Source of the DNA: a virus
Length of the DNA: 20,211 bases
Reading direction: 5' to 3' (one strand)
Virus record (IMG/VR): IMGVR_UViG_3300040976_000054
Span: 1-20,211 of that record
Shown piece after piece: positions 3,531 to 19,589 of the stretch. The notes under the pieces are model-generated. The model saw nothing but the letters and a program-made list of their open reading frames with translations. It had not been told where the DNA came from and did not search any database. The position numbers and the translations under genes were made by a program. The stretch's first letter is position 1; the number at the start of each line of letters is the position of its first letter.

Positions 3531-3559
3531 ATACTACCACCCTAAAAATTTTATTTCAA
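3531..3559 (-). promoter_or_regulatory. Sigma70-like promoter ahead of the primase cluster
   Basis: On the minus strand TTGAAA (3554-3559) is followed after exactly 17 bases by TAGTAT (3531-3536), with TGG just before the -10 box (extended -10). The -35 box overlaps the stop codon of the helicase gene. It lies in one of the few non-coding gaps (3474-3555), 60 bases or so from the next ATG. The -10 hexamer is the same as that of the promoter at 12553. Confidence 0.6.
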
Positions 3560-5112
3560 CCGTTTTCTACCTCCTTTTTATATAAATCTACTAGCCTTGT
3601 GTGCGTTTTAAGTTTATTTTGTAACATACTATATAAACGTTTTTCCACAGGGCTTCCAAAAACATTCACGATAGTCATATTACTTGTTTGTCCCGGTCTA
3701 TCTATTCTTGCGTTTGCTTGTAAATAAGTTTCCAAAGATGTAACAGGCGCATACCAAACTATAGTGTCAGCCGCAGTTAATGTAACTCCATGTGATGCTG
3801 CTTGTGGTTGAACTATTAAGACATGTGGGTCTGTGGCCTCTTGAAAGTTTTTAAATATCTCTGTTCGTTTACCAACAGAAACAGACCCATTTATAATCTC
3901 ATTAGATATTTTATTTTTCTCTAAATACTCTTGGAGTAATTGTATTGTGTGACGAAATGGGACAAACACTATTACCTTGTTGCTCGCTTCGTCAATAACT
4001 TCTTTAACAACCCTCAACCTGTTCGATACATCAAACTCTATTACTTCCTTAGTGTCGGTATAAACGGCACCTCCAGATATTTGAAGTAGTTTGTTTAAAT
4101 TTACAGCAGCATTAACAGAACTTATTTCTTCCCCGGCGGCTGTAATAAACATGTCTTTCTTTAGTTGTCTGTAATACTTATCTTGTTGAGCAGTTAAAGG
4201 TGCTTCTCTATCTACATGAGTAACTGGTGGGAGATCTAAACATTCGCTCTTTGTAAATCGCACAGCAGGCTGCAAAAGTTTAAAAACTGTGTCTTCGGCT
4301 GTAGTTCGTGGAATCCATTTAAATCTTCCAACATTTAACATAACCATATCTCTAAACCTACCAAAAAACTGCGGGCATCTATCTGGCACACACATTTTTC
4401 CAAGCCCAAAAGCATCTACTGGAGATTGTGCAGCAGGAGTTCCCGTCATCATCCATAGCCAAACATTAGGTGTAGCCAATCTTTTCATGGCTTTCCACCG
4501 TTTAGTAGATACAGATTTGTAAGCATTAGCTTCATCAATAATTATTAAGTCAAACCCTGCTTTGCTTATATCTTTTTCAACAATCTCTACACCGTCGTAG
4601 TTGATTATTATGAACTCTGCGTTAGAGTTAATTACATCTTTACGTTTTTCTCGTGCACCATATGCTACATTAACTGTCCTATGGACCGCAAACTTAAAGA
4701 AATCGGCTTGCCAAGCAGAGTGCATAATTGATAGAGGGCAAACAACCAAAACTTTTTTCACCTTCCCAATACTCATTAAATAGTCTGCAGCCCATATAGC
4801 AGATGCAGTTTTACCCGTGCCTTGTTCATTAAAGCAAAACCCACGTTTGGTTATGGATAAAAATGATGCTGTTGTTTTTTGATGGTCCATCGGTTTAAAC
4901 TGACCGCCCCATTTATAATCTCTTTCCATAGGAGATGGTACATTCTTGAATCGAAGTTCTTTTAGAGCTTTTGCCTCTTCAAACCCCCAATTTACAAGAA
5001 CTCTAGCAAGCTCCGAACTATTAGCGATTATTTTACTTTTGTTAATCGAATTAGTTATACGGTCTGGGTATTTAGTATTAACTAATAAAGCTTTGTTATC
5101 TATAACTTCCAT
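3556..5112 (-). CDS. SNF2-like superfamily II DNA helicase
   Basis: 518 residues forming a two-lobe superfamily II ATPase. Lobe 1 has Walker A EQGTGKT (96-102), the Walker B box DEAN (193-196, in place of DEAH/DEAD), and motif III TGTP (223-226). Lobe 2 ends with motif VI, ANARIDRPGQT (about 466-476), the SNF2-type arginine finger signature. Such phage enzymes translocate on double-stranded DNA and are thought to remodel forks or branched intermediates. No DnaB-type replicative helicase is seen in the window. In the fused primase, the DUF927 part may supply that activity. The start overlaps the stop of the HNH-like gene (TAATG), so translation is probably coupled. Confidence 0.9.
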   Translation of the reverse strand: MEVIDNKALLVNTKYPDRITNSINKSKIIANSSELARVLVNWGFEEAKALKELRFKNVPSPMERDYKWGGQFKPMDHQKTTASFLSITKRGFCFNEQGTGKTASAIWAADYLMSIGKVKKVLVVCPLSIMHSAWQADFFKFAVHRTVNVAYGAREKRKDVINSNAEFIIINYDGVEIVEKDISKAGFDLIIIDEANAYKSVSTKRWKAMKRLATPNVWLWMMTGTPAAQSPVDAFGLGKMCVPDRCPQFFGRFRDMVMLNVGRFKWIPRTTAEDTVFKLLQPAVRFTKSECLDLPPVTHVDREAPLTAQQDKYYRQLKKDMFITAAGEEISSVNAAVNLNKLLQISGGAVYTDTKEVIEFDVSNRLRVVKEVIDEASNKVIVFVPFRHTIQLLQEYLEKNKISNEIINGSVSVGKRTEIFKNFQEATDPHVLIVQPQAASHGVTLTAADTIVWYAPVTSLETYLQANARIDRPGQTSNMTIVNVFGSPVEKRLYSMLQNKLKTHTRLVDLYKKEVENG

Positions 5113-7738: not shown

Positions 7739-8551
7739 TCAAAAATTAAAATCAGCTATGTTGCCTTCAAATACATGAGTACCAACATGTTTTAATTCAA
7801 CATCTAAATCTACAAAAACTTCTCCACCATGTTTGCTCCAGAGATCACAAAAATGATAGTCTTCAGACAACAATGCCCCCGTCTCATCAATACTTGTATC
7901 AAAGAACTGTTTAGTCAACGGCTTTAAGAAATCCCCTTTGCTATCTTTTTTAGTAGATGTACGGTAGGTAGGTACATGATTAGAAAGTCTCTCAAACACT
8001 TTCCTTTTTACTAACATAAACCCAGTGCCTGCGTGCCGAACTTTTACCAAACCTTTACTGTTCTTCTGAATGGTGTTAACACCATGTGGGAAGTTAATCA
8101 CGTAATCCCCTGCAAAACTTTTTATATTTTCAATACCGTTATTAGCTGCAGTTTGTAATGCTTTCCAATTAATAACTTTCTTAGGGTACAGCCCTGCTAC
8201 AACATCTTCATCATGCTCTACTAATTTATATACTGCTTCTGCAGGAAACTGCATATCTGCATCAATAAACATGATGTGTGTGCATTTTGAATCGTCTAAG
8301 AACATACGTACAAGTTCGTTTCTCGCTCTAGTGATTAATGACTCATTTGTGATGTTCGCTAAATAAGTTTCGCAATTGTTAACACTTAAGTCATTAATCG
8401 TATTAATAATAGAGATTGTATATTGTCCTGTGCATTGTCCACTATACATGGGTGTAGCAACAAGTACAGATGGAGGTGTCGTAGGTTTGGATATATTTAG
8501 TGTTTCATCGCTTAAAAAGTTACCCGATTTAATTTGATATGTGTCTTTCAT
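7739..8551 (-). CDS. GT-A fold glycosyltransferase
   Basis: 270 residues. An early LVATPMYSG strand (about 30-38), then FIDADMQ with the DxD metal/nucleotide-sugar ligands D97 and D99, then SEDYHFCDLW (about 229-238, the acidic catalytic region), and a final LKHVGTH. This order is that of GT2-like or Anp1-like transferases found in phages. No membrane segment is seen, so it should act in the cytoplasm of the infected cell. The acceptor is unknown: phage DNA, phage protein or host glycan are all possible. It sits among nucleotide and DNA genes, with 4-base overlap to the upstream gene and 14 bases before the reductase. Confidence 0.8.
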   Translation of the reverse strand: MKDTYQIKSGNFLSDETLNISKPTTPPSVLVATPMYSGQCTGQYTISIINTINDLSVNNCETYLANITNESLITRARNELVRMFLDDSKCTHIMFIDADMQFPAEAVYKLVEHDEDVVAGLYPKKVINWKALQTAANNGIENIKSFAGDYVINFPHGVNTIQKNSKGLVKVRHAGTGFMLVKRKVFERLSNHVPTYRTSTKKDSKGDFLKPLTKQFFDTSIDETGALLSEDYHFCDLWSKHGGEVFVDLDVELKHVGTHVFEGNIADFNF

Positions 8552-9365: not shown

Positions 9366-10025
9366 TTACCCCCTACCGTTGTGTTCACAATCTGTGACTG
9401 GACAATAATTTTTACATGTAAAGTTTTGCTTGGGGTTCCAAACATCAAACTTATAAGCTTTTTCTAAACGCTCGGTTTCTGTAGAAAACTTACCCCATAT
9501 TTCTGAAATTTGTGGTCTAGTGTAGTTTTTTTTAATTAAATTTTTTGCTACCACAAACAACAAACCCGCCTTTATTTTTTGTATTTTTGGAAAATGCTTA
9601 AACGTAGCTAAACTTAATAAATCTAATTGTTTAGTATCAGCGTAACGTGCATTTTTCCCAGTTTTATAATCCACCACATATGCACTACTTTTATTGTTTA
9701 CAATCAAATCTGCAATGCCCCGCCACCAAACATATTTATCTTTAAAACTACAAGGCTCTAATTCTTTTGTTAACCCCATTTCATATTCACAAAGTTTTTC
9801 TCCCTCTAATTTTTTTAAAACATTTAGATAAGGTTCTAAATAACTAAACTGAGGAGGAATAGCTGCATCTTCTCGTATATAATTCTCTGCTGCCTTGTGC
9901 GCTTCTTTCCCATAAAACATTGCTTGACTTTCTTCTTGCGGTATGTCTTTCTTTACTCGCAACCTATAATATTTCCTAGGGCATTGTTGGAACAAAGAAA
10001 GAGAAGAATAAGACCACCTAACCAT
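9366..10025 (-). CDS. Cas4-like PD-(D/E)XK nuclease, probable Fe-S protein
   Basis: 219 residues when read from ATG at 10025 (an 8-base overlap with the polymerase gene, the same as at four other junctions here); a GTG at 10049 is an alternative start. The N-terminal YSSLSLFQQCPRKYY has Cys15, the core GIADLIV...AYVVDYKTGK supplies the Asp and D-x-K metal-binding residues, and the C-terminus has C204, C208 and C213. One early plus three late Cys is the Cas4/AddB iron-sulfur pattern. Members act as exonucleases that resect or process DNA ends. There is no CRISPR array or other cas gene here, so it is more likely a phage replication or recombination nuclease. Confidence 0.82.
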   Translation of the reverse strand: MVRWSYSSLSLFQQCPRKYYRLRVKKDIPQEESQAMFYGKEAHKAAENYIREDAAIPPQFSYLEPYLNVLKKLEGEKLCEYEMGLTKELEPCSFKDKYVWWRGIADLIVNNKSSAYVVDYKTGKNARYADTKQLDLLSLATFKHFPKIQKIKAGLLFVVAKNLIKKNYTRPQISEIWGKFSTETERLEKAYKFDVWNPKQNFTCKNYCPVTDCEHNGRG

Positions 10026-11826
10026 AGGTATCACCAACTTCTGTTTCACAATTTAAAGGTAAGTCTGAACACCAACTTGGTCTCCAAGTCATACACTTTG
10101 TTACGTATTCTTTAGCTGCTTCTGCTTCTTCTCTTTTTGCAATACAAGCCACTGCGTCATGCACCGTTAAAACAACCTTATATTTTTTAGCAATTCTTAA
10201 CATCTGCTCTCCAATAACACACCTTGCCACTGCTTGACAAATATTCTCAACCACTTTGCCACCGTAGATGTTTATTCGGTCTTTTCTGCTCTTGTAAGAA
10301 AAAAAAGTCTGTCCTGCAACATCTTGTTGTTTTTTCAAGTCGGGGTACTTTAGCAGTAATCCATTAGGTAAATAAAACCCTAAATTTGGTATAATGCTTA
10401 AAGCCTGAGTTTGCTTTGATACTTCTATATATTTACCTTTAATTATAGCTTCTAACCCTAGCTGCGCCTGTTTCCAAAATTTTGGGATGTGTGGGTACAC
10501 TTTTCTATAAGTGTGTATTATTTTTTTACATTCTTCAGCACCTAAATTTTTCCCGAAAGTTTTTAATTGGATACTAAATTTCATTGCCCCCATCGAATAA
10601 CCACAACCCAATATTGTTGTTTTGCCTACGAAACGTTGCTCACTTGTTATATCCTCCACTGGCCTGTTATATATCGCAGAAGCCATTATCTTATATACAT
10701 CATCCCCATTACGAAATGCTTCTACCAAATCATGTTGTCCAGATAGCCAAGCCAACACTCTAGCTTCTATTTGTGAAGAGTCAGAATTTACTAGCACATA
10801 ACCTTTAGGAGCCCATATTGATTGCTTTAACACAGACTTTCTTGGAATATTTTGTAGATTTACGTTGTCGGATCCCCCCCACCTTCCTGTGTGCGCCGCA
10901 TAATATTTTAAAGGGACTGGAAGGCTACCACGATTACCTATATCAATAAAACGTTGGGTTCTTGTTTCTTCTAAAGTTGACTTTGTTCCAAGACGAGCCG
11001 CCACCAAATTTTGGACTTTCTCGTCGGGGTGCTCTTGTAGTTTTTTAAACCCCTCATCAGTTTTAGAAAAAGCGAATGTTTGTTTGCCTGTGCGAGGGCT
11101 AATTTTCATAGGAGGTTCGACACCAAGAGAAATAAGTTTATCAGCAAACTTTGGGTTTGACATCAACGTGTCTTTATCAGCTACACAATCTGCTAAAAGT
11201 TTTTCTTTCTCAGCTACCACATTCTTTAAGTGGTTCTCAAGAATTGTTAGGTCTAAATCAAGCACAGGTTGGGCAAACATGTTTATCGTTAAATCAATGA
11301 GCCTAAATTCTATCGCAGGGAACCCCTCGCTCATAATCTCAAATAGTTTTTTAGTTAACCTAACATCTTGTTTACAATATTCTCCGTAAGCCTGTAATTC
11401 AGTATCACTAAAGTCGGATCTGCGTTTACCAATAGCATCTAAGACTTCGGTTCCTTTTTTTCCAATGTTGTAGTATTCGGATAAGACTTTGAGACTTCCT
11501 CCCACTTCCGTACCATGCAAAGACCTTGCCATGCTAAGAGTGTCAAGCCACCCGATAGGCTGAATACCAAATTTCCAATTAAGGATAGCGGCATCAAACA
11601 AAGTGTTGTGAGCGAGACAATAACTTTCTGTCCAGTTATATGACATGAGGTCTCTTTTAATATCTTCAAATCTTCCTGAGAACCATCTACCTTCTTCTTC
11701 TCCTTGCTTGACACAAACCCCAATGACTTCAAATCTTTCATCACGTATGTACTCCTCAATTGTTAATTTTGATAGTGAAAATTTTTTATCGTAATAAGTC
11801 TCAAAATCTATCGTTAATATCTGCAT
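10018..11826 (-). CDS. polA: Family A DNA polymerase with 3'-5' exonuclease
   Basis: 602 residues, no 5'-3' exonuclease domain, as in phage replicative polymerases. The proofreading domain is intact: exo I DFE (D7, E9), exo II AHNTLFD (D78), exo III YCKQD (D154). In the polymerase domain TGRW lies at 313-316, motif A DSSQIE at 349-354, the fingers helix R398...K402...Y410, and motif C VHDA at 555-558. Leu406 stands where E. coli Pol I has Phe762. In motif C an Ala replaces the common Glu after HD. It would copy the phage genome. The start is preceded by AAAAGGAAACA and by the gap with a TATAAT box. Confidence 0.95.
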   Translation of the reverse strand: MQILTIDFETYYDKKFSLSKLTIEEYIRDERFEVIGVCVKQGEEEGRWFSGRFEDIKRDLMSYNWTESYCLAHNTLFDAAILNWKFGIQPIGWLDTLSMARSLHGTEVGGSLKVLSEYYNIGKKGTEVLDAIGKRRSDFSDTELQAYGEYCKQDVRLTKKLFEIMSEGFPAIEFRLIDLTINMFAQPVLDLDLTILENHLKNVVAEKEKLLADCVADKDTLMSNPKFADKLISLGVEPPMKISPRTGKQTFAFSKTDEGFKKLQEHPDEKVQNLVAARLGTKSTLEETRTQRFIDIGNRGSLPVPLKYYAAHTGRWGGSDNVNLQNIPRKSVLKQSIWAPKGYVLVNSDSSQIEARVLAWLSGQHDLVEAFRNGDDVYKIMASAIYNRPVEDITSEQRFVGKTTILGCGYSMGAMKFSIQLKTFGKNLGAEECKKIIHTYRKVYPHIPKFWKQAQLGLEAIIKGKYIEVSKQTQALSIIPNLGFYLPNGLLLKYPDLKKQQDVAGQTFFSYKSRKDRINIYGGKVVENICQAVARCVIGEQMLRIAKKYKVVLTVHDAVACIAKREEAEAAKEYVTKCMTWRPSWCSDLPLNCETEVGDTYG

Positions 11827-11877: not shown

Positions 11878-12186
11878 CTACAACGATCTACCCCCCAAAA
11901 TTTGACAGGTCGTTAGCATCGTCTCAACCATATTTATATTTTTTTCATTAATTATTAAAGTAAGCCCTTGGTTACTATCAATCTCTCTAAGGTTTTTTTC
12001 TTGCAGAGGTGTGGGTTTGTTGCCCCCTGCTTTACATTCAATACCAAAAAATTGTCCTTTGTAACAACCAATAATATCAGGCACACCACTTTTACCATAA
12101 CCCCCTGTTTGAGGAAATAAATAATATACCCCATGTTTTTTTAGTATTGCTACGACTTTGTTTTTAACTTTCTTCTCAGGTGTCAT
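11878..12186 (-). CDS. VRR-NUC domain nuclease
   Basis: 102 residues. GYGKSGVPDIIGCYKG followed by FFGIECKAGGNKPTPLQ gives the PD...ExK core of the VRR-NUC branch of PD-(D/E)XK nucleases: D36, E50 and K52, with the usual downstream Gln. Stand-alone VRR-NUC proteins of about 100 residues are common in phages and probably cut branched or structured DNA in replication or recombination. The start overlaps the stop of the gene before by 4 bases (ATGA). Its first residues MTPEKK repeat those of that gene. Confidence 0.88.
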   Translation of the reverse strand: MTPEKKVKNKVVAILKKHGVYYLFPQTGGYGKSGVPDIIGCYKGQFFGIECKAGGNKPTPLQEKNLREIDSNQGLTLIINEKNINMVETMLTTCQILGGRSL

Positions 12187-12710: not shown

Positions 12711-13565
12711 TTAAAGTTGTGCTTCTGAGATATAATATAAAGAACATTTTCTTACCATATATCCTCCCATAAAACGATTATACAAACCATCACTATCAAA
12801 AAGTTTTACACCCATATTTCTTAAACATTCTCTTTGCTCTAAAAGTTTTAACGGTGTAATTTTTTGTTGCACAATCTCTGGCAGTTTACTAAAGTCTTTT
12901 GTTTCTGTGATAAAACGAGACTCTTCTGTGGGCTTGCTAAGGTCAGCAACCACATACGTTTCATCCTCTGTGATTACAACAGCATACCCTTTTCGTTTAT
13001 CCTGTTCTTCTTGCAAAGCCTTAGCAATCATATAATTAGATAAACTCCCCTTTAAAATCTCTTTATCCTCTTCAGATTTAAAATCTAAACTAACATTTTG
13101 CAGTGCATCTGGTTCTCCTATTAAGAATCGTAATAACCCATGTTGGATTTCGTTACCGTTACTAAACTTTTGTAGAACATTACCCATACTGATACTTGCT
13201 CTATGGCTGTCCACAATCTTAGACAAGTTACTAGCAATAGCTTCTTGTGCAATTTGAACCTCTCTAGCAGTTTCTTTAGGAGTGTTACCTGCAAAACATC
13301 TCACACACTCTAATAGCACAGGTCTCATGTGTACAGAGGTTTTTTCATGATATGGCGCTTTTTGGTTTAAAATCTTACTTTGTGACTCAACTGAATATAG
13401 TTCTTTGTCTTGTCTTTTGTGCTTACCAAAAGCTATCGCACCTACCTCTCGCCAACCAACAAAAACCCTTAACTGAAATTCGCTAATATAAGTAAACCAC
13501 ACGTTTGGAATATACTTGCGTATTTCTTTTTGTAGTTGTTCAAGTTTATCAAATGTTGTTTCCAT
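12711..13565 (-). CDS. Protein of unknown function
   Basis: 284 residues, soluble, no domain recognised. The N-terminal part (to about 65) is mixed strand and helix with aromatic residues (VWFTYISEFQLRVFVGWREVGAIAFG). The middle is helical and the end has Arg, Tyr and Cys residues. It is the last gene before the terminator at 12640-12669. A ribosome-binding site (AAGGAG) lies within the end of the membrane-protein gene, with which it overlaps by 17 bases. Being last in the unit that holds the MoxR/VWA module, it might act with it, but nothing in the sequence proves this. Confidence 0.6.
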   Translation of the reverse strand: METTFDKLEQLQKEIRKYIPNVWFTYISEFQLRVFVGWREVGAIAFGKHKRQDKELYSVESQSKILNQKAPYHEKTSVHMRPVLLECVRCFAGNTPKETAREVQIAQEAIASNLSKIVDSHRASISMGNVLQKFSNGNEIQHGLLRFLIGEPDALQNVSLDFKSEEDKEILKGSLSNYMIAKALQEEQDKRKGYAVVITEDETYVVADLSKPTEESRFITETKDFSKLPEIVQQKITPLKLLEQRECLRNMGVKLFDSDGLYNRFMGGYMVRKCSLYYISEAQL

Positions 13566-13830
13566 CGCTATCTCCTTTTTTATTTCTTATGTCTTTTACA
13601 ATACTCTCTAAGAGTAAAACGTATTTAATAAAATATGCGTTCTCGTAAATGTTAGCTACAGCAATTGCAGTCGCAACAACCACACATGGTATCAAGAAAT
13701 ATATCCCTTGATCTAAAGTCGTTTTTGCACTAGCCACAGCTTCAAAAATTACTCCACATATAAACCCAACTATAACCCAACCAAACGATTGAGCCAGTAC
13801 ACGTAAAATAGTCATTAAGCTTTGTTTCAT
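13549..13830 (-). CDS. Two-helix membrane protein
   Basis: 93 residues with two hydrophobic stretches, about 13-35 (FAQSFGWV to IFEAVA region) and about 43-62 (IYFLIPCVVVATAIAVANIY), followed by a charged C-terminus (KDIRNKKGDSDGNN). Size and two-segment layout recall class II holins, but the gene stands among early genes, not lysis genes, and no endolysin is near, so I do not call it a holin. The ribosome-binding site is G-rich (AAGGGGGTGGGAA). The next gene begins before this one ends. Confidence 0.6.
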   Translation of the reverse strand: MKQSLMTILRVLAQSFGWVIVGFICGVIFEAVASAKTTLDQGIYFLIPCVVVATAIAVANIYENAYFIKYVLLLESIVKDIRNKKGDSDGNNI

Positions 13831-13841
13831 TTCCCACCCCC

Positions 13842-14705
13842 TTAAAAGTTAAACTTCGATAAAATATCATCTACACCCTGCTTTACTTGTATTCGTGCAG
13901 GTCTAAAATCACGTAGGTCTTGTGCTTCATCTACAGTAGTAATTGTCAACTCCAAAGCTTTTCTTGCTTCTTCTAGCTTTGGGTCATTGCTAATATTGAG
14001 ATGCTTAAGCGAATCTACGAGTGATACAGCATTATCTAACAGAGAATCACGAAAGACTTTCTTATCGCCTTTAGTGTTGTCTGCTAACTTATCGCTCATA
14101 TTCTCAAGGTGCTTGTGCAGTCTGTCCCAAGCTGTTTGCATAGCTCTGCTAGTCTTTTCTTGTGCATCAACTTCATACTGCTTTTGCAACTCAACCTTAG
14201 CTTGTTCTTCCACATCAATGCGAAAGTCTCCCGATGTTGGCACAGGACTGAACACTAACTTAAAAGAAAACCTTGACTTTATATCTTCAACATCAGGGTA
14301 ATCAGAAGCATCATATGATGCACCAAGATTGTAGGCAGCCTCGGTTTTGAGGTCTACATAATTCCCAAGAAAGCCGTCCACATACCCCTGCCATTCCGTT
14401 TCCAAATGAGACATTGCACTTTTGTACTCCATGAAAGCAGATGAGGGCAACAACCTCACTCCGTTGTCGGTCCAAGGTAAAGTCCATTCATTGTGAGTCG
14501 CACGTACTCTCGCACTAAACTTAACAATGTCGTCTAACAACTGAGTTCCTGCAAATAATTTCTTATGCACAGTATTAGCTGCAGTCTTAGTGCCCTTTGC
14601 TTCATCTACTTCTTGTGAAGCACGTCTGTCAATCTTAACACCCGTCCAATTAGATATACTTAACTCGACTAGCATTGCACTTGTGTGTATTCCGATATCA
14701 CTCAT
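13842..14705 (-). CDS. DUF3150-like protein
   Basis: 287 residues from ATG at 14705, which is preceded by AAAGGGGAAACAA and overlaps the previous gene by 8 bases; the frame is open further upstream but lies inside that gene. The block KKLFAGTQLLDDIVKFSARVR, then HNEWTLPWTDNGVRLLP (about 71-87) and AFMEYK looks like DUF3150, a family of unknown function often coded near MoxR-type ATPases in phages and bacteria. The second half is helical, rich in Gln, Glu and Lys. Family assignment is from memory of the pattern. Here it lies six genes after a MoxR ATPase, so it is a possible third partner of the ATPase and VWA protein. Confidence 0.6.
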   Translation of the reverse strand: MSDIGIHTSAMLVELSISNWTGVKIDRRASQEVDEAKGTKTAANTVHKKLFAGTQLLDDIVKFSARVRATHNEWTLPWTDNGVRLLPSSAFMEYKSAMSHLETEWQGYVDGFLGNYVDLKTEAAYNLGASYDASDYPDVEDIKSRFSFKLVFSPVPTSGDFRIDVEEQAKVELQKQYEVDAQEKTSRAMQTAWDRLHKHLENMSDKLADNTKGDKKVFRDSLLDNAVSLVDSLKHLNISNDPKLEEARKALELTITTVDEAQDLRDFRPARIQVKQGVDDILSKFNF

Positions 14706-14934
14706 TTGTTTCCCCTTTAGTTTGTGTAGCAACTGCCAATAAATAAAGTTTTTGAAAATCTCTTTCATCAAAGGCTGATTCAGAAACCTCGCTCCATTCC
14801 TCATCATCTTTTAAATGATCTGTCGAGCCATCAGCTAAAGCTGGGGCAGATAGCAAAACACCATTTTCAAACTTCAACCAATTGCTACCATACTTAACCC
14901 AATATTTTTTTTGTAATTGAAAAGCTTCACTCAT
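14698..14934 (-). CDS. Small acidic protein of unknown function
   Basis: 78 residues, taken from ATG at 14934 because GGGGGGAG lies 6 bases upstream; a start at 14967 would lengthen it by 11 residues inside the previous gene. Sequence is acidic in the middle (HLKDDEEWSEVSESAFDERD) with several Trp and Tyr early on. No motif is recognised. It overlaps both neighbours by 8 bases, so it is read as part of the same operon. Confidence 0.55.
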   Translation of the reverse strand: MSEAFQLQKKYWVKYGSNWLKFENGVLLSAPALADGSTDHLKDDEEWSEVSESAFDERDFQKLYLLAVATQTKGETNE

Positions 14935-15130
14935 CTTTATCTCCCCCCACGTCAGGTAAACTGTCAAACTTCTGTTCTGCCTTTGCTATGATGTACCCAT
15001 CAATTTGTTGTTGGGTCTCTGAATGAATGTTAATAACAGACTTAAGTTGCTTTAGCGTCATGTTATCAACTTCCTCAATGGCTTCGGCATAACATATTTC
15101 TTGTAAAACCACGTTAGCTTCATTACTCAT
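14927..15130 (-). CDS. Small acidic protein of unknown function
   Basis: 67 residues, acidic, mostly helical, no motif recognised. Its ATG overlaps the stop of the gene before (TAATG), with AAAGGGGGCAG upstream, and its end overlaps the next gene by 8 bases. It is one of four small, unnamed proteins in a row between the VWA-like protein and the DUF3150-like protein. Confidence 0.55.
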   Translation of the reverse strand: MSNEANVVLQEICYAEAIEEVDNMTLKQLKSVINIHSETQQQIDGYIIAKAEQKFDSLPDVGGDKDE

Positions 15131-15468
15131 TACTGCCCCCTTTCTATTTCTCTTAGTCTTTGGTTATGTATTTCTTGATAGTCGTAGTCGTCCTTATTTT
15201 CTTCGCTCACTACAAACGGTTCATTGTTGTTTGACATGGTAAGAATATATATACTGTCCTCTAACTTAAATGACTTACCAGAATCCAACTGCTTTATAAC
15301 ATCTGCAAACTCGCTTTCGGTAAACCAGTAGAACAATTTACTATCTAATACTGCATGTTCATCAAAAAACCAATGTCCTAGTTCCTTGTTATCAGAATGT
15401 ACTCCCACGTCTACATTCAAACGTGCTCCGTCTACAAGTACTTCTGCAGCTTCAGTTCTTACTTCCAT
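15130..15468 (-). CDS. Small acidic protein of unknown function
   Basis: 112 residues, acidic, with an N-terminal half of alternating hydrophobic and polar residues (VLVDGARLNVDVGVH) that may form beta strands, followed by FDEHAVLDSKLFYWFTESEF and a charged end. No family recognised. It is read from AGAGGGGGGTAATC directly before ATG and overlaps the preceding gene by 17 bases. Confidence 0.6.
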   Translation of the reverse strand: MEVRTEAAEVLVDGARLNVDVGVHSDNKELGHWFFDEHAVLDSKLFYWFTESEFADVIKQLDSGKSFKLEDSIYILTMSNNNEPFVVSEENKDDYDYQEIHNQRLREIERGQ

Positions 15469-15655
15469 GATTACCCCCCTCTAGTTTTTGTTTAATAACT
15501 TCCCATGATACTTTTACATCCACATCTTCGTGGTTCTTGAGAACTGCTTCTATAGTGTTAATCGAGTCAAGTAAAATAAAATACTCTCTCGTAATCACAT
15601 TATTTAGATTCAGTTGTTTTCTCTCATCTCGGTTTAAGATTGGTTTAACTCTCAT
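15452..15655 (-). CDS. Small protein of unknown function
   Basis: 67 residues, charged and helical (LNRDERKQLNLNNVI, then a Leu/Ile/Val-rich centre). No motif recognised. The start overlaps the stop of the VWA-like gene by one base (TAATG), which suggests it is translated by the same ribosomes, so it may be linked to that protein's function. Confidence 0.55.
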   Translation of the reverse strand: MRVKPILNRDERKQLNLNNVITREYFILLDSINTIEAVLKNHEDVDVKVSWEVIKQKLEGGNHGSKN

Positions 15656-16902
15656 TACATATCTCCTGTATCAATATGAATTGTTTTACCGATAGGTGCA
15701 GTAAACCTATTATTGTTCACTACACACCAGATAACTGGACAAGTAACTTGCGACCATCGACTAACATCACAACTTAAGTAACCATCAGTCAGCATAATAA
15801 TTATTTCTGGCTTCAAGTTTTTCTCGCCAAGATAATCAGGTACACAATCAGGGTCAGTTCCCCCACCACCTATCGGTTTTGTAAAGTCGGCATAGGTAGA
15901 CAACTCATCGTCTTTATACACCTCGTGATTCTCGACAACGGTATCCCAATATAGAAGGTGTGTTTCTCTAGGGTTCACTTCCTGTCCGATTAACTGAATC
16001 TCTCCACGAAACTGTCCACTTTCTCTAGGTCCAATAGAACCAGAGGTGTCTTCAGCAGTAAGTAATGCCCCCACTCGTTCAGAAAAAATAGATGGCATCA
16101 TGACATCTATGGCTAGATATTTCTTGTTGGGTTTTCGCCACGTAGAATCATCTTGCCCAGACATCACTTCTTTTACTTCATCTCGCAAAGCATCTCGCCA
16201 ATTTACTTTTGGTGTCAACGCTTCTTCGATACCCACAGACATTTTGCCTGCACGTTTGCCGACTAACTGAGAACCCTCACGCAATGCTTGTTCTATCTCC
16301 TCTTGAAGAACTTCTTTCTCTTCATCAGATAATTCTTGAGCGCCGTCCCAGTCATGGTCGTCATGAGATTGTGGGATATCGTTACTGCTTTCTCCACCTT
16401 CTCCTCTAGTTGGAGTTCCACCCGTAGGTTGTTCTGGTATCTCCTTCTTGAGAATATTAAATACTCGTGTAGTATCCACATTGCGAAACCTCTCATCAAT
16501 CAACCCAATGACGTTGCCATCTTCATCTTGTGGCATACATGGGGAATGATTGCCCTTGACATGTTTACCATAATCCTTAATCTCAAGGTTGATAACATAG
16601 TCCGTAGCAAGATTGACAAGATCAGGTCTTTCTTTTCGCAGATGTTTGTACACCGACAGATGCCTGTATGCTTTGTGCATTGCTTCATGTAACACAATAA
16701 ACATTACCTCAGCATCAGAAAGAGATTCAATAAATGCTCTACCATAAATAACATCTCGACCGTTGGTACATGCTGTCGGTACTTTGTCGGAGATTTTTAC
16801 ATCCCCAATCATAATGACACCAGAATACAAACACAGACTTGGGTCTTGCATAATCCTCATGTGTGCTCTTTCAATCTTTTGTTCAGCCGTTAATTTAGCC
16901 AT
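15655..16902 (-). CDS. Predicted metallopeptidase with VWA-like domain (DUF2201-like)
   Basis: 415 residues. The N-terminal domain has LHEAMHKAYRHL (71-82): an HExxH zinc site, H72-E73-H76, followed by ATDYVIN (99-105), the second conserved block of this family. A Gly/Glu/Asp-rich linker spans about 155-210. The C-terminal domain has the metal-site pattern of von Willebrand A domains: DTSGS (285-289), GGGGTD (345-350) and LTDG (371-374). Such proteins are usually encoded beside MoxR ATPases, as here, with a 51-residue gene between. Work by the pair is thought to be chaperone-like or peptide-cleaving, but targets in phages are unknown. Ribosome-binding site GAGGAG fits the start at 16902. Confidence 0.88.
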   Translation of the reverse strand: MAKLTAEQKIERAHMRIMQDPSLCLYSGVIMIGDVKISDKVPTACTNGRDVIYGRAFIESLSDAEVMFIVLHEAMHKAYRHLSVYKHLRKERPDLVNLATDYVINLEIKDYGKHVKGNHSPCMPQDEDGNVIGLIDERFRNVDTTRVFNILKKEIPEQPTGGTPTRGEGGESSNDIPQSHDDHDWDGAQELSDEEKEVLQEEIEQALREGSQLVGKRAGKMSVGIEEALTPKVNWRDALRDEVKEVMSGQDDSTWRKPNKKYLAIDVMMPSIFSERVGALLTAEDTSGSIGPRESGQFRGEIQLIGQEVNPRETHLLYWDTVVENHEVYKDDELSTYADFTKPIGGGGTDPDCVPDYLGEKNLKPEIIIMLTDGYLSCDVSRWSQVTCPVIWCVVNNNRFTAPIGKTIHIDTGDM

Positions 16903-17050
16903 ATCTTTTTCTCCTCAACTTGTGAAAGAAATCATTTGAAATTTGTTTTGTTTGAAACGTTTTCTTTGTAGGTGTTGCCACCTTACGTCTTTCAATAACC
17001 GTTCCATTCCGTACATGACGGATCTTCATTGTTTTAACGCAACCTCTCAT
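16895..17050 (-). CDS. Very small basic protein
   Basis: 51 residues, about a third Lys and Arg, ending HKLRRKRYG. ATG at 17050 is chosen because AAGGGGGGTGGT lies just before it; an ORF start at 17095 would run back into the MoxR gene. It lies between the MoxR ATPase (10 bases after its stop) and the VWA-like peptidase (overlap 8 bases). It may bind nucleic acid or serve as a small partner of the module; neither is shown. Confidence 0.55.
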   Translation of the reverse strand: MRGCVKTMKIRHVRNGTVIERRKVATPTKKTFQTKQISNDFFHKLRRKRYG

Positions 17051-17060
17051 ACCACCCCCC

Positions 17061-18143
17061 TTAAAATAAGTATTGGTTATCTTTTGCCCACTCAATAAAT
17101 GGCATTGATGAAAACATTACTTCCTTTGCTTTCTTATGATCTTTAGCAGAAAGACAGAACAACGCTTGTACTTCTTTCGGTAATCTCTTGAGATACTTAA
17201 ACCAATTACCTATGTTTGATCTATCTACCTTACCTAATGAAGAATAAGTTAAGATACAACGTGCCGCAGGGGAATCAGGTATTGAAGCACTATCAGGATT
17301 CGCAATGATGTCCTTCCACAATGGCAACGAATCAGCAACTCTAATGAATGATAAGAACTTGGCTGTTGCGGCTCTACCAATTGTGCCGTCCAACGCAGTA
17401 CGTAAAACCTGCTCAGAAAACTTATCCCTTTGCCAGAATATATTAGATGCTTTGTGGGCAGATCGTGGAGAGAAAAATGCTTTCTGTGGTTTCTTAGGAT
17501 TAAACACAATCTCTAGTAACTCAGCATCTTCGGTAGTAAGATAAGAGGACTCAATAACCTCTGGATTCTCTTTAACAAATGCAAGCATCAATGGGTGTAT
17601 CTTATCAATTCCCCATGCACACCATTCTTCAGCAAGAGGGTTTCTAATAAGCACCTCAGTAATTCTATTCCTAGTATGTGCCGCCATTGCATCTCCCACA
17701 CCCATACTTGAATTGTTACCTGCCATAACTACCACACTATCTTTGTGCAACTTATATGGACCAAACCGTCTTTCGTTAATTAAAGGGTGAAGCATATTCT
17801 GTACGGCACGTGGTCCTTTCGTGAACTCGTCTAAAAATATAAAGATTGGTTCTCCTGTATGCAATTTCCAAGATTCGTTTGGATAAAACGTAGTGGTCTC
17901 GGTCTCATGATTCGGCATGGGGATACCACCCTCGCCTAACTCTAAATTTGGGCAGTCTAGGTAAATATAATGTGTGAACCCGAATACCTCTTTACCTTTT
18001 TCGTAAATAGAATCTGATATCGAGGTCTTACCAATGCCTGCTGGTCCAACCATGTAAAGAGTAGTTTGGTTGCCGACGGCTAATGCCAAAGTCTCAAAGT
18101 CGTTCAAAGAGATTGGTGCTGTTGTGTTTACTATTGTTGACAT
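17061..18143 (-). CDS. MoxR-type AAA+ ATPase
   Basis: 360 residues from ATG at 18143, preceded by AAAGGAAACATT; the open frame goes on to 18248 but that part overlaps the previous gene and the palindromic element. Walker A GPAGIGKT (33-40), Walker B FIFLDEF (101-107), sensor 1 region MAGNNSS (140-146) and the ARNR-like HTRNR (156-160) place it in the MoxR/dynein-related group. These ATPases act as rings with a VWA-domain partner, which is the second gene downstream. A CobS-like annotation is possible because CobS is in the same group, but the VWA partner is not CobT-like. Confidence 0.9.
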   Translation of the reverse strand: MSTIVNTTAPISLNDFETLALAVGNQTTLYMVGPAGIGKTSISDSIYEKGKEVFGFTHYIYLDCPNLELGEGGIPMPNHETETTTFYPNESWKLHTGEPIFIFLDEFTKGPRAVQNMLHPLINERRFGPYKLHKDSVVVMAGNNSSMGVGDAMAAHTRNRITEVLIRNPLAEEWCAWGIDKIHPLMLAFVKENPEVIESSYLTTEDAELLEIVFNPKKPQKAFFSPRSAHKASNIFWQRDKFSEQVLRTALDGTIGRAATAKFLSFIRVADSLPLWKDIIANPDSASIPDSPAARCILTYSSLGKVDRSNIGNWFKYLKRLPKEVQALFCLSAKDHKKAKEVMFSSMPFIEWAKDNQYLF

Positions 18144-18172: not shown

Positions 18173-18202
18173 GGAAAAGTGACGGTGCTCTGTCATTTTT
18201 CC
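18173..18202. repeat. 30-bp palindromic element, copy 2
   Basis: The most symmetrical copy: two 11-base arms that pair throughout with one G-T wobble, enclosing an 8-base centre. It begins at the stop codon of the previous gene and ends 29 bases before the start of the MoxR gene, in a gap of under 60 bases. No clear promoter lies in that gap. It may be an operator, an RNA processing hairpin or an attenuator. Confidence 0.75.
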
Positions 18203-19194
18203 TATTTACTACCCCACTTACTGTAACCAAGCTGTGCATCTTTATCATGCACGAGCAATCCTATTTCAATTGGGGTGTAATTAAATACTTCTTTGAAATA
18301 GAATATCTTTAGCATCAAGTCAAACTGCTCCTTTACTTGTTTGTACCCAATGCGTGTAAACTTCCTACTAGATTTACGTAATTGATGCGTGCTCCAATGA
18401 CGACCCAAATACTCCATGTAATATCCCGAAGTACATCTCACTAACACCTCTTTCATAACCTCTGGGTCATCAACAGGATTTCGTAAAAAGATTTCAAATT
18501 CTTCAACGTTCACAGGAGTCTCAAACTCACAATCTCTTCGCCAATCTTTGTCATAACCCAAACCAAACTCAGGGTCAACAGAAAGAACTGCTTTCATGTA
18601 CTCGTAAAATGGGTTGAACTTCTTTCGTATCTCACGCATACACTTCTTGTCCATCACGTGTTTATACTCTTGGATAGGAGATTCGGGAATCCACTTATCG
18701 TCCTTTTTTATAATCCTGTAGGTTTCCCTCAAGTTAGATTTGACGTATCTTTGTTTGAGGGGGTCAAAATTACAAAAGGATTCATGTTGTCGCTTATTCC
18801 CTGCAAGTCTAGGTAGAAACCAACGATCACCAGATGATGCCATCTGATACTCTCCCCAGTAAAGTTTTCCATGATGTGTAAAAAAATGTACACCATGTAT
18901 AGTCTTGCCTAGAAACTCAGCGAATCTCCAATCATAATAGCTATTACCACTTAGTATTTCGATAGAGTTATCTTCATACCAACGGAATACAGGCAAACTA
19001 GATTCACAAAACATCTCGATACAACCAGAACCTGTAGTACGACACCAATATTGACCTGTATATCTTCTTTCGCCTAATGGTATCTTTCCTTTATTGACAC
19101 TACCCATGTTTGGTTTTGTAGTGCTCACGTAGTGTGCAAGGTCTTCATAAGAATGGTATGAAGATAATCCGTTCATGCTGTTTCCGTCACTCAT
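18202..19194 (-). CDS. Protein of unknown function
   Basis: 330 residues from ATG at 19194, which has GGGGGT 7 bases upstream; a start at 19209 would add 5 residues and overlap the previous gene. Rich in Tyr, Trp, Phe, His and Arg, with strand-like blocks such as YTGQYWCRTTGSGCIEMFCE and GKTIHGVHFFTHHGKLYWGEY (about 90-118). No signal peptide, membrane segment or catalytic motif I know. The gene lies between the first small genes and the MoxR ATPase. Its stop TAG overlaps the palindromic element. Confidence 0.7.
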   Translation of the reverse strand: MSDGNSMNGLSSYHSYEDLAHYVSTTKPNMGSVNKGKIPLGERRYTGQYWCRTTGSGCIEMFCESSLPVFRWYEDNSIEILSGNSYYDWRFAEFLGKTIHGVHFFTHHGKLYWGEYQMASSGDRWFLPRLAGNKRQHESFCNFDPLKQRYVKSNLRETYRIIKKDDKWIPESPIQEYKHVMDKKCMREIRKKFNPFYEYMKAVLSVDPEFGLGYDKDWRRDCEFETPVNVEEFEIFLRNPVDDPEVMKEVLVRCTSGYYMEYLGRHWSTHQLRKSSRKFTRIGYKQVKEQFDLMLKIFYFKEVFNYTPIEIGLLVHDKDAQLGYSKWGSK

Positions 19195-19196
19195 TT

Positions 19197-19589
19197 TTAA
19201 TACCCCCATTTCTTTGCGTTAAAGTTACTAGGTAAATACTTACGCTCACACCAATCACAAAACTCATTAATAAATTCTTCAGAAGAAGACTCTGCATCAG
19301 TTAATTCTCTGCCCAATCTCTTTTCCCATTCATCTATCAATGCGAACCCTATCTTGGTTTCTAACTCAGCTTCTTGCTCTTCCTCCTCTTCCATACGTTG
19401 CTTGTCAGCATCTGTTAGCTTGGCTTGTTGTAATAACTCGTCTACACCATCAACTAACTTGACCTTGCCGTTTCCTATATCGGCTTGTAAGGTATCCCAT
19501 GTTTGCGTTTCTTTTAGCATGAGTTCATCTGTCATTTCTCTTGCTTCATCTTGTTCAGCCGTAGTGGTTACTCTTTTCCAGTTACTCAT
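19197..19589 (-). CDS. Acidic protein of unknown function
   Basis: 130 residues from ATG at 19589, which overlaps the stop of the zinc-finger gene (ATGA) and has GGGAGGG upstream. The frame is open to 19730 but that is inside the zinc-finger gene. Residues 55-90 are very acidic (EEEEEQEAELE) and probably helical; the end is mixed with Cys and Trp (FCDWCERKYLP). No family recognised. CDWC is a Cys pair but has no partner pair. Confidence 0.65.
   Translation of the reverse strand: MSNWKRVTTTAEQDEAREMTDELMLKETQTWDTLQADIGNGKVKLVDGVDELLQQAKLTDADKQRMEEEEEQEAELETKIGFALIDEWEKRLGRELTDAESSSEEFINEFCDWCERKYLPSNFNAKKWGY

Follow-up and report, generated by a model that had tools for sequence, protein, structure and literature searches.

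The window analysed here, the 20,211-base virus record IMGVR_UViG_3300040976_000054 with its main genes all on the minus strand, carries in one operon a MoxR-type AAA+ ATPase, a DUF2201 protein that unites a peptidase-like domain with a VWA domain, and a DUF3150-family protein. These three families co-occur almost obligatorily on phages, conjugative plasmids and integrating elements, with congruent gene trees, intact ATPase and VWA metal-site motifs, and DNA-processing genes as neighbours. We propose, at about even chances, that the trio would work as one ATP-driven remodelling machine of mobile DNA, whose client is most likely the element's own replication or recombination nucleoprotein. The open reading frame (ORF) positions and the joint occurrence of the trio had been put forward in an earlier note made from the sequence alone, and both are borne out by ORF calls and by Pfam and PHROGs matches.

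17061-18143, minus strand: MoxR-type AAA+ ATPase, 360 amino acids
15655-16902, minus strand: DUF2201 protein, 415 amino acids
16660-16689, minus strand: its HExxHxxxxH motif, residues 72-81, HEAMHKAYRH
16036-16050, minus strand: DxSxS motif of its metal ion-dependent adhesion site (MIDAS), residues 285-289, DTSGS
15856-15858 and 15784-15786, minus strand: third and fourth MIDAS ligands, T349 and D373
13842-14705, minus strand: DUF3150-family protein, 287 amino acids

Genes of the operon overlap or nearly abut, with a Shine-Dalgarno-like stretch at most starts; such stretches back the predicted starts of all three genes and of four small genes. The ATPase and VWA genes are adjacent on the same strand, the arrangement of a MoxR-VWA pair.

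The ATPase and the peptidase-VWA protein

The product of 17061-18143 is a MoxR AAA+ ATPase, as the earlier note had read it. It matches AAA_5 above the Pfam cut-off (E 1.1e-6) and phrog_1297 (E 4.9e-52), and it carries a Walker A motif, GPAGIGKT, at 18024-18047 and a Walker B motif, IFIFLDE, near 17826-17849. Residues G36, G38, K39, D105 and E106 are invariant across its phage relatives. In profile comparison the closest solved structure in the PDB is Midasin (E 1e-27), while the bpMoxR model stays below its cut-off on this ATPase (16.9 of 27 bits).

The neighbouring protein matches DUF2201_N (PF13203, E 1.4e-25) and DUF2201 (PF09967, E 1.4e-14), both above Pfam cut-offs, and consists of an N-terminal HExxH zincin-like domain followed by a C-terminal VWA domain with a MIDAS site. 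Its AlphaFold model (pLDDT 86.5) resembles, by Foldseek, Ro60 (E 1e-6), the MIDAS domain of Midasin (1e-4) and the NorD VWA domain of the NorQ complex (3e-3). The suggestion of a two-domain zinc peptidase with a VWA-like metal site has thus held up for domains, motifs and modelled fold. HEAMH together with the conserved N97, D101 and N105 fits the sequence pattern of a predicted metallopeptidase. Both the Pfam domains and the structure model contradict the label 'HNH endonuclease', which phrog_1314 and RefSeq attach to this family (N4 gp25, YP_950503.1, and many Schitoviridae records).

The two metal sites differ in their conservation. MIDAS residues D285, S287 and S289 are present in all 59 family members and T349 and D373 in 58 of 59 each, whereas the HExxH zinc site is intact in 54 of 59. 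It has been lost in one clade with 100% support, drawn mainly from alpha- and gammaproteobacterial genomes, and on one plasmid (L115); in both, HExxH and N97/D101/N105 have decayed together as a set. In L123, solely the catalytic glutamate has changed, to alanine. Because the MIDAS site is invariant while the zinc site is lost in some copies, gripping and pulling would seem to be the main activity, with cleavage as an accessory.

Zinc-site residues are naturally lost in loci L132, L135, L137, L139, L140, L144, L146 and L149-L152, as well as in L115 and L123. The same copies keep the MIDAS site where it is present in the aligned stretch, and some of their genomes hold several trio copies per chromosome.

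A divergent DUF3150 relative

The DUF3150 label did not stand as a direct assignment: in the Pfam scan the window protein gave no match to PF11348 (DUF3150), whose cut-off is 24.9 bits. Homology through relatives is nevertheless found. By tblastn the ORF matches a homologue in phage MinM2 (E 2e-25) that bears the name 'DUF3150' in GenBank; three phage relatives have sub-threshold PF11348 matches exactly at the homologous ORF; a Cupriavidus plasmid homologue matches PF11348 at E 1.1e-4; and the best relatives score 15-22 bits. When the window family (43 sequences) was aligned by hhalign with six true PF11348 proteins, the match was colinear over 147 N-terminal columns (92.7%, E 4.2e-7), as against 0.2-0.3% for two unrelated plasmid families used as controls. 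Compared with the pRA1 DUF3150 protein as a single sequence, the window family gave a weak match (10%), and the family-to-family comparison was used instead. The product of 13842-14705 is therefore classed, through its relatives, as a predicted divergent relative of DUF3150 and not a strict member of PF11348.

The model of this protein (pLDDT 90.8, pTM 0.84) shows a mixed alpha/beta N-terminal part and a long helical C-terminal part. Its match in a viral-model library is a 'DUF3150 domain-containing protein' (TM 0.84, E 1e-19); against the PDB, Foldseek returned no fold match at E below 0.5. Two candidate homologues, CRP-7 gp16 for the DUF3150 family and pVa5 gene 62 for the VWA family, aligned as unrelated and were dropped.

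Co-occurrence, gene order and trees

Two scans seeded on DUF3150 alone yielded 61 loci (22 viral, 39 bacterial), and all three genes were present in 55 of them (19 of 22 viral, 36 of 39 bacterial), counts that, like those of gene order below, come from pattern-based scans with near-duplicates included and are not unbiased frequencies. Five of the six incomplete loci (L014, L018, L031, L124, L157) are cut at a contig end on the relevant side; the sixth, L154, is a 4.9-kb contig with VWA and DUF3150 genes and no MoxR gene. The genes share one strand in 100 of 100 complete trios. Their order is MoxR-DUF3150-VWA in 82 loci, MoxR-VWA-DUF3150, as in the window, in 15, and DUF3150-MoxR-VWA in three, although some of the 15 reflect over-long ORFs in GC-rich contigs whose true order is MoxR-DUF3150-VWA.

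The three gene trees agree in their distances, with rho 0.70-0.82 against a maximum of 0.28 in 200 permutations. On the concatenated tree, in which long branches affect some deep placements, the carrier changes four times between phage and plasmid or chromosome, and at least three changes are forced by supported branches; one of the changes involves L125, which may be a phage contig placed in the bin of an actinobacterium. The survey thus answers a question raised by the earlier note, since the gene set is common to phages, plasmids and integrating elements and is not unique to this contig.

Carriers and neighbouring genes

Trio carriers comprise metagenome phages, phage MinM2, Burkholderiales plasmids, IncA/IncC, IncP-7 and other conjugative plasmids, and chromosomal elements. 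Phage copies are found beside genes for DNA polymerase, endonuclease and nucleotide kinase, and at two phage loci terminase large-subunit genes lie nearby. Chromosomal copies, which occur in Cloacimonadota, Armatimonadota, Bacteroidota, Pseudomonadota, Thermodesulfobacteriota and others, neighbour RadC, ParB, integrase, SSB, RecT, Toprim primase and conjugative-transposon genes. On Burkholderiales plasmids the trio is close to PRTRC and type IV secretion genes; in L113 and L114, plasmids of Cupriavidus and Paraburkholderia, a PRTRC cassette (ThiF-related plasmid genes) is located a few kilobases upstream.

A second subtype combines a CbbQ-type ATPase (with CbbQ_C domain) with a true PF11348 protein and with a VWA protein that is CobT-like and likewise has HExxH at its start. 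It occurs on IncA plasmid pRA1, on Methylomonas, Pseudomonas, Providencia and Vibrio plasmids, on E. coli pT267A and on pCAR1, generally beside Bet/RecT, lambda-exonuclease or SSB genes. In pRA1, Methylomonas, Providencia, E. coli pT267A and Vibrio, the genes for Bet or RecT, lambda-exonuclease, MoxR, DUF3150 and VWA make up one cluster; in pCAR1, ssb-recT is about 10 kb from the trio. DUF3150 of this subtype was found on 1,103 plasmids, 970 of them typed as conjugative. When the two subtypes are aligned, their MoxR proteins match at 96.6% (E 6e-10). The bet/exo operon of SXT is activated by SetCD (PMC4344509). Transcription of the pCAR1 trio operon is strong and host-dependent, and the original study raised a possible part in transfer (PMC2642839).

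Since the fixed trio is also found on conjugative plasmids and integrating elements, where its neighbours are usually DNA-recombination genes, its distribution suggests a shared DNA-handling role rather than one in building virus particles, and the constancy of the DNA-processing context suggests a nucleoprotein client. Why a phage should carry such genes, for which host takeover, defence evasion and protein maturation had all been considered, is thereby narrowed to a shared mobile-DNA module, mostly in DNA-processing neighbourhoods.

The pair without DUF3150

In Schitoviridae (N4-type phages) and several other phages, which possess MoxR and DUF2201 genes, profile searches of the whole genomes detected no DUF3150 gene, the positive control being MinM2. 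Nor did the genes that separate MoxR from VWA in N4-like phages give a convincing match as a hidden DUF3150 (best 7.3 bits). In N4 the pair is gp24/gp25, adjacent and upstream of replication genes (helicase, polymerase), and its VWA homologue is of DUF2201 type with HExxH and DxSxS present. Both are among the 14 core genes of the group and have middle-phase transcripts (PMC4193335). DUF3150 is thus not universal and, as the pair occurs alone in such phages, ATPase and VWA protein can presumably work without it, suggesting that DUF3150 acts as an adaptor or in a client-specific role.

The 'CobS/CobT' genes of phages CRP-810, RHph_N1_10, ICP2 and GMA3 (L161, L162, L163, L164) likewise form a MoxR and HExxH-VWA pair without DUF3150, and the cobalamin auxiliary-metabolism label of those phage genes is therefore doubtful.

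Small genes and the remainder of the operon

The other features of the operon follow, in transcription order down to the primase-like protein.

18202-19209, minus strand: unknown gene, first of the operon
16895-17050, minus strand: small basic gene, probably about 51 amino acids
15452-15655, minus strand: small gene, 67 amino acids, isoelectric point (pI) 8.1 (near-neutral), lineage-specific
15130-15468, minus strand: small acidic gene, 112 amino acids, pI 4.5, lineage-specific
14927-15130, minus strand: small acidic gene, 67 amino acids, pI 4.2, lineage-specific
14698-14934, minus strand: small acidic gene, 78 amino acids from an ATG at 14934, pI 4.5, lineage-specific
13549-13830, minus strand: small hydrophobic (membrane) protein, 93 amino acids, GRAVY 0.73, next operon gene after DUF3150
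12711-13565, minus strand: unknown gene, after the membrane-protein gene
11878-12186: Hjc-like protein between trio and DNA polymerase, weak match to Holliday-junction resolvase Hjc (E 0.0015, below cut-off)
10018-11826, minus strand: family A DNA polymerase, phrog_17 E 1e-84
9366-10049, minus strand: PD-(D/E)XK nuclease, PDDEXK_1 E 9e-15
After the nuclease, in operon order: DUF3310, ribonucleotide reductase, SNF2-type helicase, primase-like protein
7739-8551: glycosyltransferase family 2-like protein inside the replication operon, phrog_1574, E 2e-4 (slightly below cut-off)

One small basic and four small, mostly acidic genes followed by a membrane protein had been described before, and this description is accurate, with one of the four near-neutral and three at pI 4.2-4.5. 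The basic gene (pI 11.6, net charge +16 for the longer ORF) could be read from as far as 17095, where a TTG lacks a good ribosome site, and its best start lies near 17050; no convincing homologue was seen in any fetched locus (best E 0.29). Neither the four small genes between VWA and DUF3150, in any fetched locus including the nearest relative L011, nor the 93-residue hydrophobic protein, in L011, had a homologue. In L011 the VWA and DUF3150 genes abut (6551/6555). The small acidic genes were accordingly rejected as components, and the small genes, having no match in this nearest relative, do not belong to the system.

A second contig of the same phage (L032, 99.94% identity over 8.3 kb) reaches beyond the right end of the window and carries there, on the opposite strand, a terminase large-subunit-like gene identified by reading its translation. 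The trio thus lies at the head of a replication arm that diverges from packaging. At 3556-5112 the window encodes a stand-alone SNF2-type helicase that matches the central part of far longer phage helicase families (phrog_62).

Discussion

The idea of a chaperone-like MoxR-VWA machine, voiced in the earlier note, holds. By analogy with NorQ-NorD, RavA-ViaA and Midasin, we infer that the three products would form a complex with remodelling activity. The MoxR ring (17061-18143) would dock on the VWA protein (15655-16902), and the MIDAS metal site of the latter would grip a carboxylate on the client; DUF3150 (13842-14705) would be a dedicated third subunit or client adaptor; and ATP hydrolysis would pull or loosen the client, which the HExxH domain may also clip in most copies. 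Candidate clients are an annealing recombinase, SSB or the replisome. A tentative and rather doubtful extension is that MoxR-DUF3150-VWA might constitute a new class of recombination or replication mediator, a three-subunit AAA+ machine which loads, clears or recycles RecT, Bet, Sak4 or SSB on mobile-element DNA.

Several points weigh against a nucleoprotein-remodelling machine. Its neighbourhood suggests a client and does not prove one, since many unrelated functions gather around the replication genes of mobile elements, and terminase genes too lie near phage copies. N4-type and several other phages have the pair with no detectable DUF3150. Between the plasmid subtype with CobS/CobT-like proteins and the DUF2201 phage subtype, the MoxR and DUF3150 relations are clear and that of the VWA proteins is weak (40%). 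Moreover, SXT deletions of bet, exo, s067, s068 and s070 lower transfer 10-fold or less (PMC2791158), so that any role of the trio in SXT would be mild under laboratory conditions; s067 and s068 would, from gene order, be the DUF3150 and VWA genes.

We regard as unlikely a host-takeover or anti-defence machine that captures a host protein, such as a nuclease or a factor of defence or stress, and unfolds or cleaves it early in infection or when a plasmid enters. Such a role would agree with a module shared, as is often the case for anti-defence genes, among phages, plasmids and integrating elements, with a HExxH domain intact in most copies, and with a position in the replication-gene operon, divergent from the L032 terminase genes. 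It fits poorly with loss of the zinc site in at least two or three lineages that keep MIDAS, which makes cleavage dispensable. The N4-like pair is core in its whole phage group, unlike patchy anti-defence genes (PMC4193335), and no PADLOC-type partner was found.

Virion assembly, in which the machine would act as chaperone and process structural proteins, is quite improbable for this module. It has been proposed for group 2.2 jumbo phages, with a precedent in Acidianus two-tailed virus (PMC7824862), and could draw on the terminase genes near two phage loci. Plasmids (more than 1,000 with DUF3150) and chromosomal integrating elements carry the trio as well, however, and build no virion. According to the excerpts of PMC4193335, the N4 homologues are middle, not late, genes, and a roseophage virion proteome lists neighbours of the N4 homologues, not the homologues themselves.

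Still less credible is a defence module directed at competing elements in the manner of the ternary MoxR-VWA conflict systems (Kaur et al. 2020, PMC7159879) to which the earlier note had linked the genes. The analogy stands: in both, MoxR and VWA belong to a three-part set with a variable third partner and, in some cases, a peptidase or peptidase-like domain, and some symbionts hold several copies of the trio per chromosome. Membership does not follow, as a text search of PMC7159879 found neither DUF3150 nor DUF2201 named. Pfam, PADLOC and NCBIfam scans revealed no VMAP-type third component or effector domain; PADLOC has no VWA/DUF3150 family, neither protein had a PADLOC or NCBIfam match, and the genes are conserved inside phage replication operons. 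Very improbable, finally, is a cobaltochelatase- or NorQD-like machine maturing a metal cofactor or carried metalloenzyme such as the ribonucleotide reductase of the same operon: MoxR-VWA pairs do activate metalloenzymes (NorQD, CoxDE) and plasmid VWA proteins resemble CobT weakly, some bearing the name NorD, but neither CobN nor a nitric oxide reductase nor any constant metalloenzyme partner was seen near the plasmid and chromosomal copies, the look for CobN being confined to these neighbourhoods.

RavA-ViaA, NorQ-NorD, CbbQ-CbbO and CoxD-CoxE serve the maturation of cellular enzymes. Like the trio, they pair a MoxR ring with a MIDAS-bearing VWA adaptor, and the window model matches the NorD VWA domain; unlike it, they have no DUF3150 third subunit. 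The MoxR-VWA pair itself is already known from jumbo phages (PMC7824862), N4-like phages and, as MoxR and VWA genes, pCAR1 (PMC2642839). The group 2.2 jumbo phage pair (Iyer et al. 2021) has the same ATPase type and fused peptidase-VWA architecture as the window; the excerpts of PMC7824862 describe no DUF3150 partner, whereas the present module has a constant third gene and occurs on virion-less elements. N4 gp24/gp25 (PMC4193335, PMC7650795) similarly are an adjacent ATPase and DUF2201-type VWA gene upstream of replication genes, but profile search finds no DUF3150 there, and they are annotated as unknown, vWFA or, wrongly, HNH endonuclease. In pCAR1 (ORF101-103), IncA/IncC plasmids and SXT/R391 (PMC2642839, PMC2791158), MoxR, DUF3150 (ORF102) and VWA genes share one operon as in the window, yet with a CbbQ_C ATPase, a CobT-like rather than DUF2201 VWA protein and linkage to bet/exo or recT; the excerpts of these two papers do not discuss DUF3150. 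None of the 5.39 million papers searched, a set with subscription papers mostly outside it, names DUF3150; that this partner is constant, and that the phage and plasmid modules are the same, both appear unreported.

A conserved trio without assigned function is present on phages, on clinically important groups of conjugative plasmids and on integrating elements. It links the N4 core genes gp24/gp25 with the plasmid genes next to bet/exo, both so far unexplained, and a single hypothesis can thus be put to the test for the two in laboratory phage and plasmid systems.

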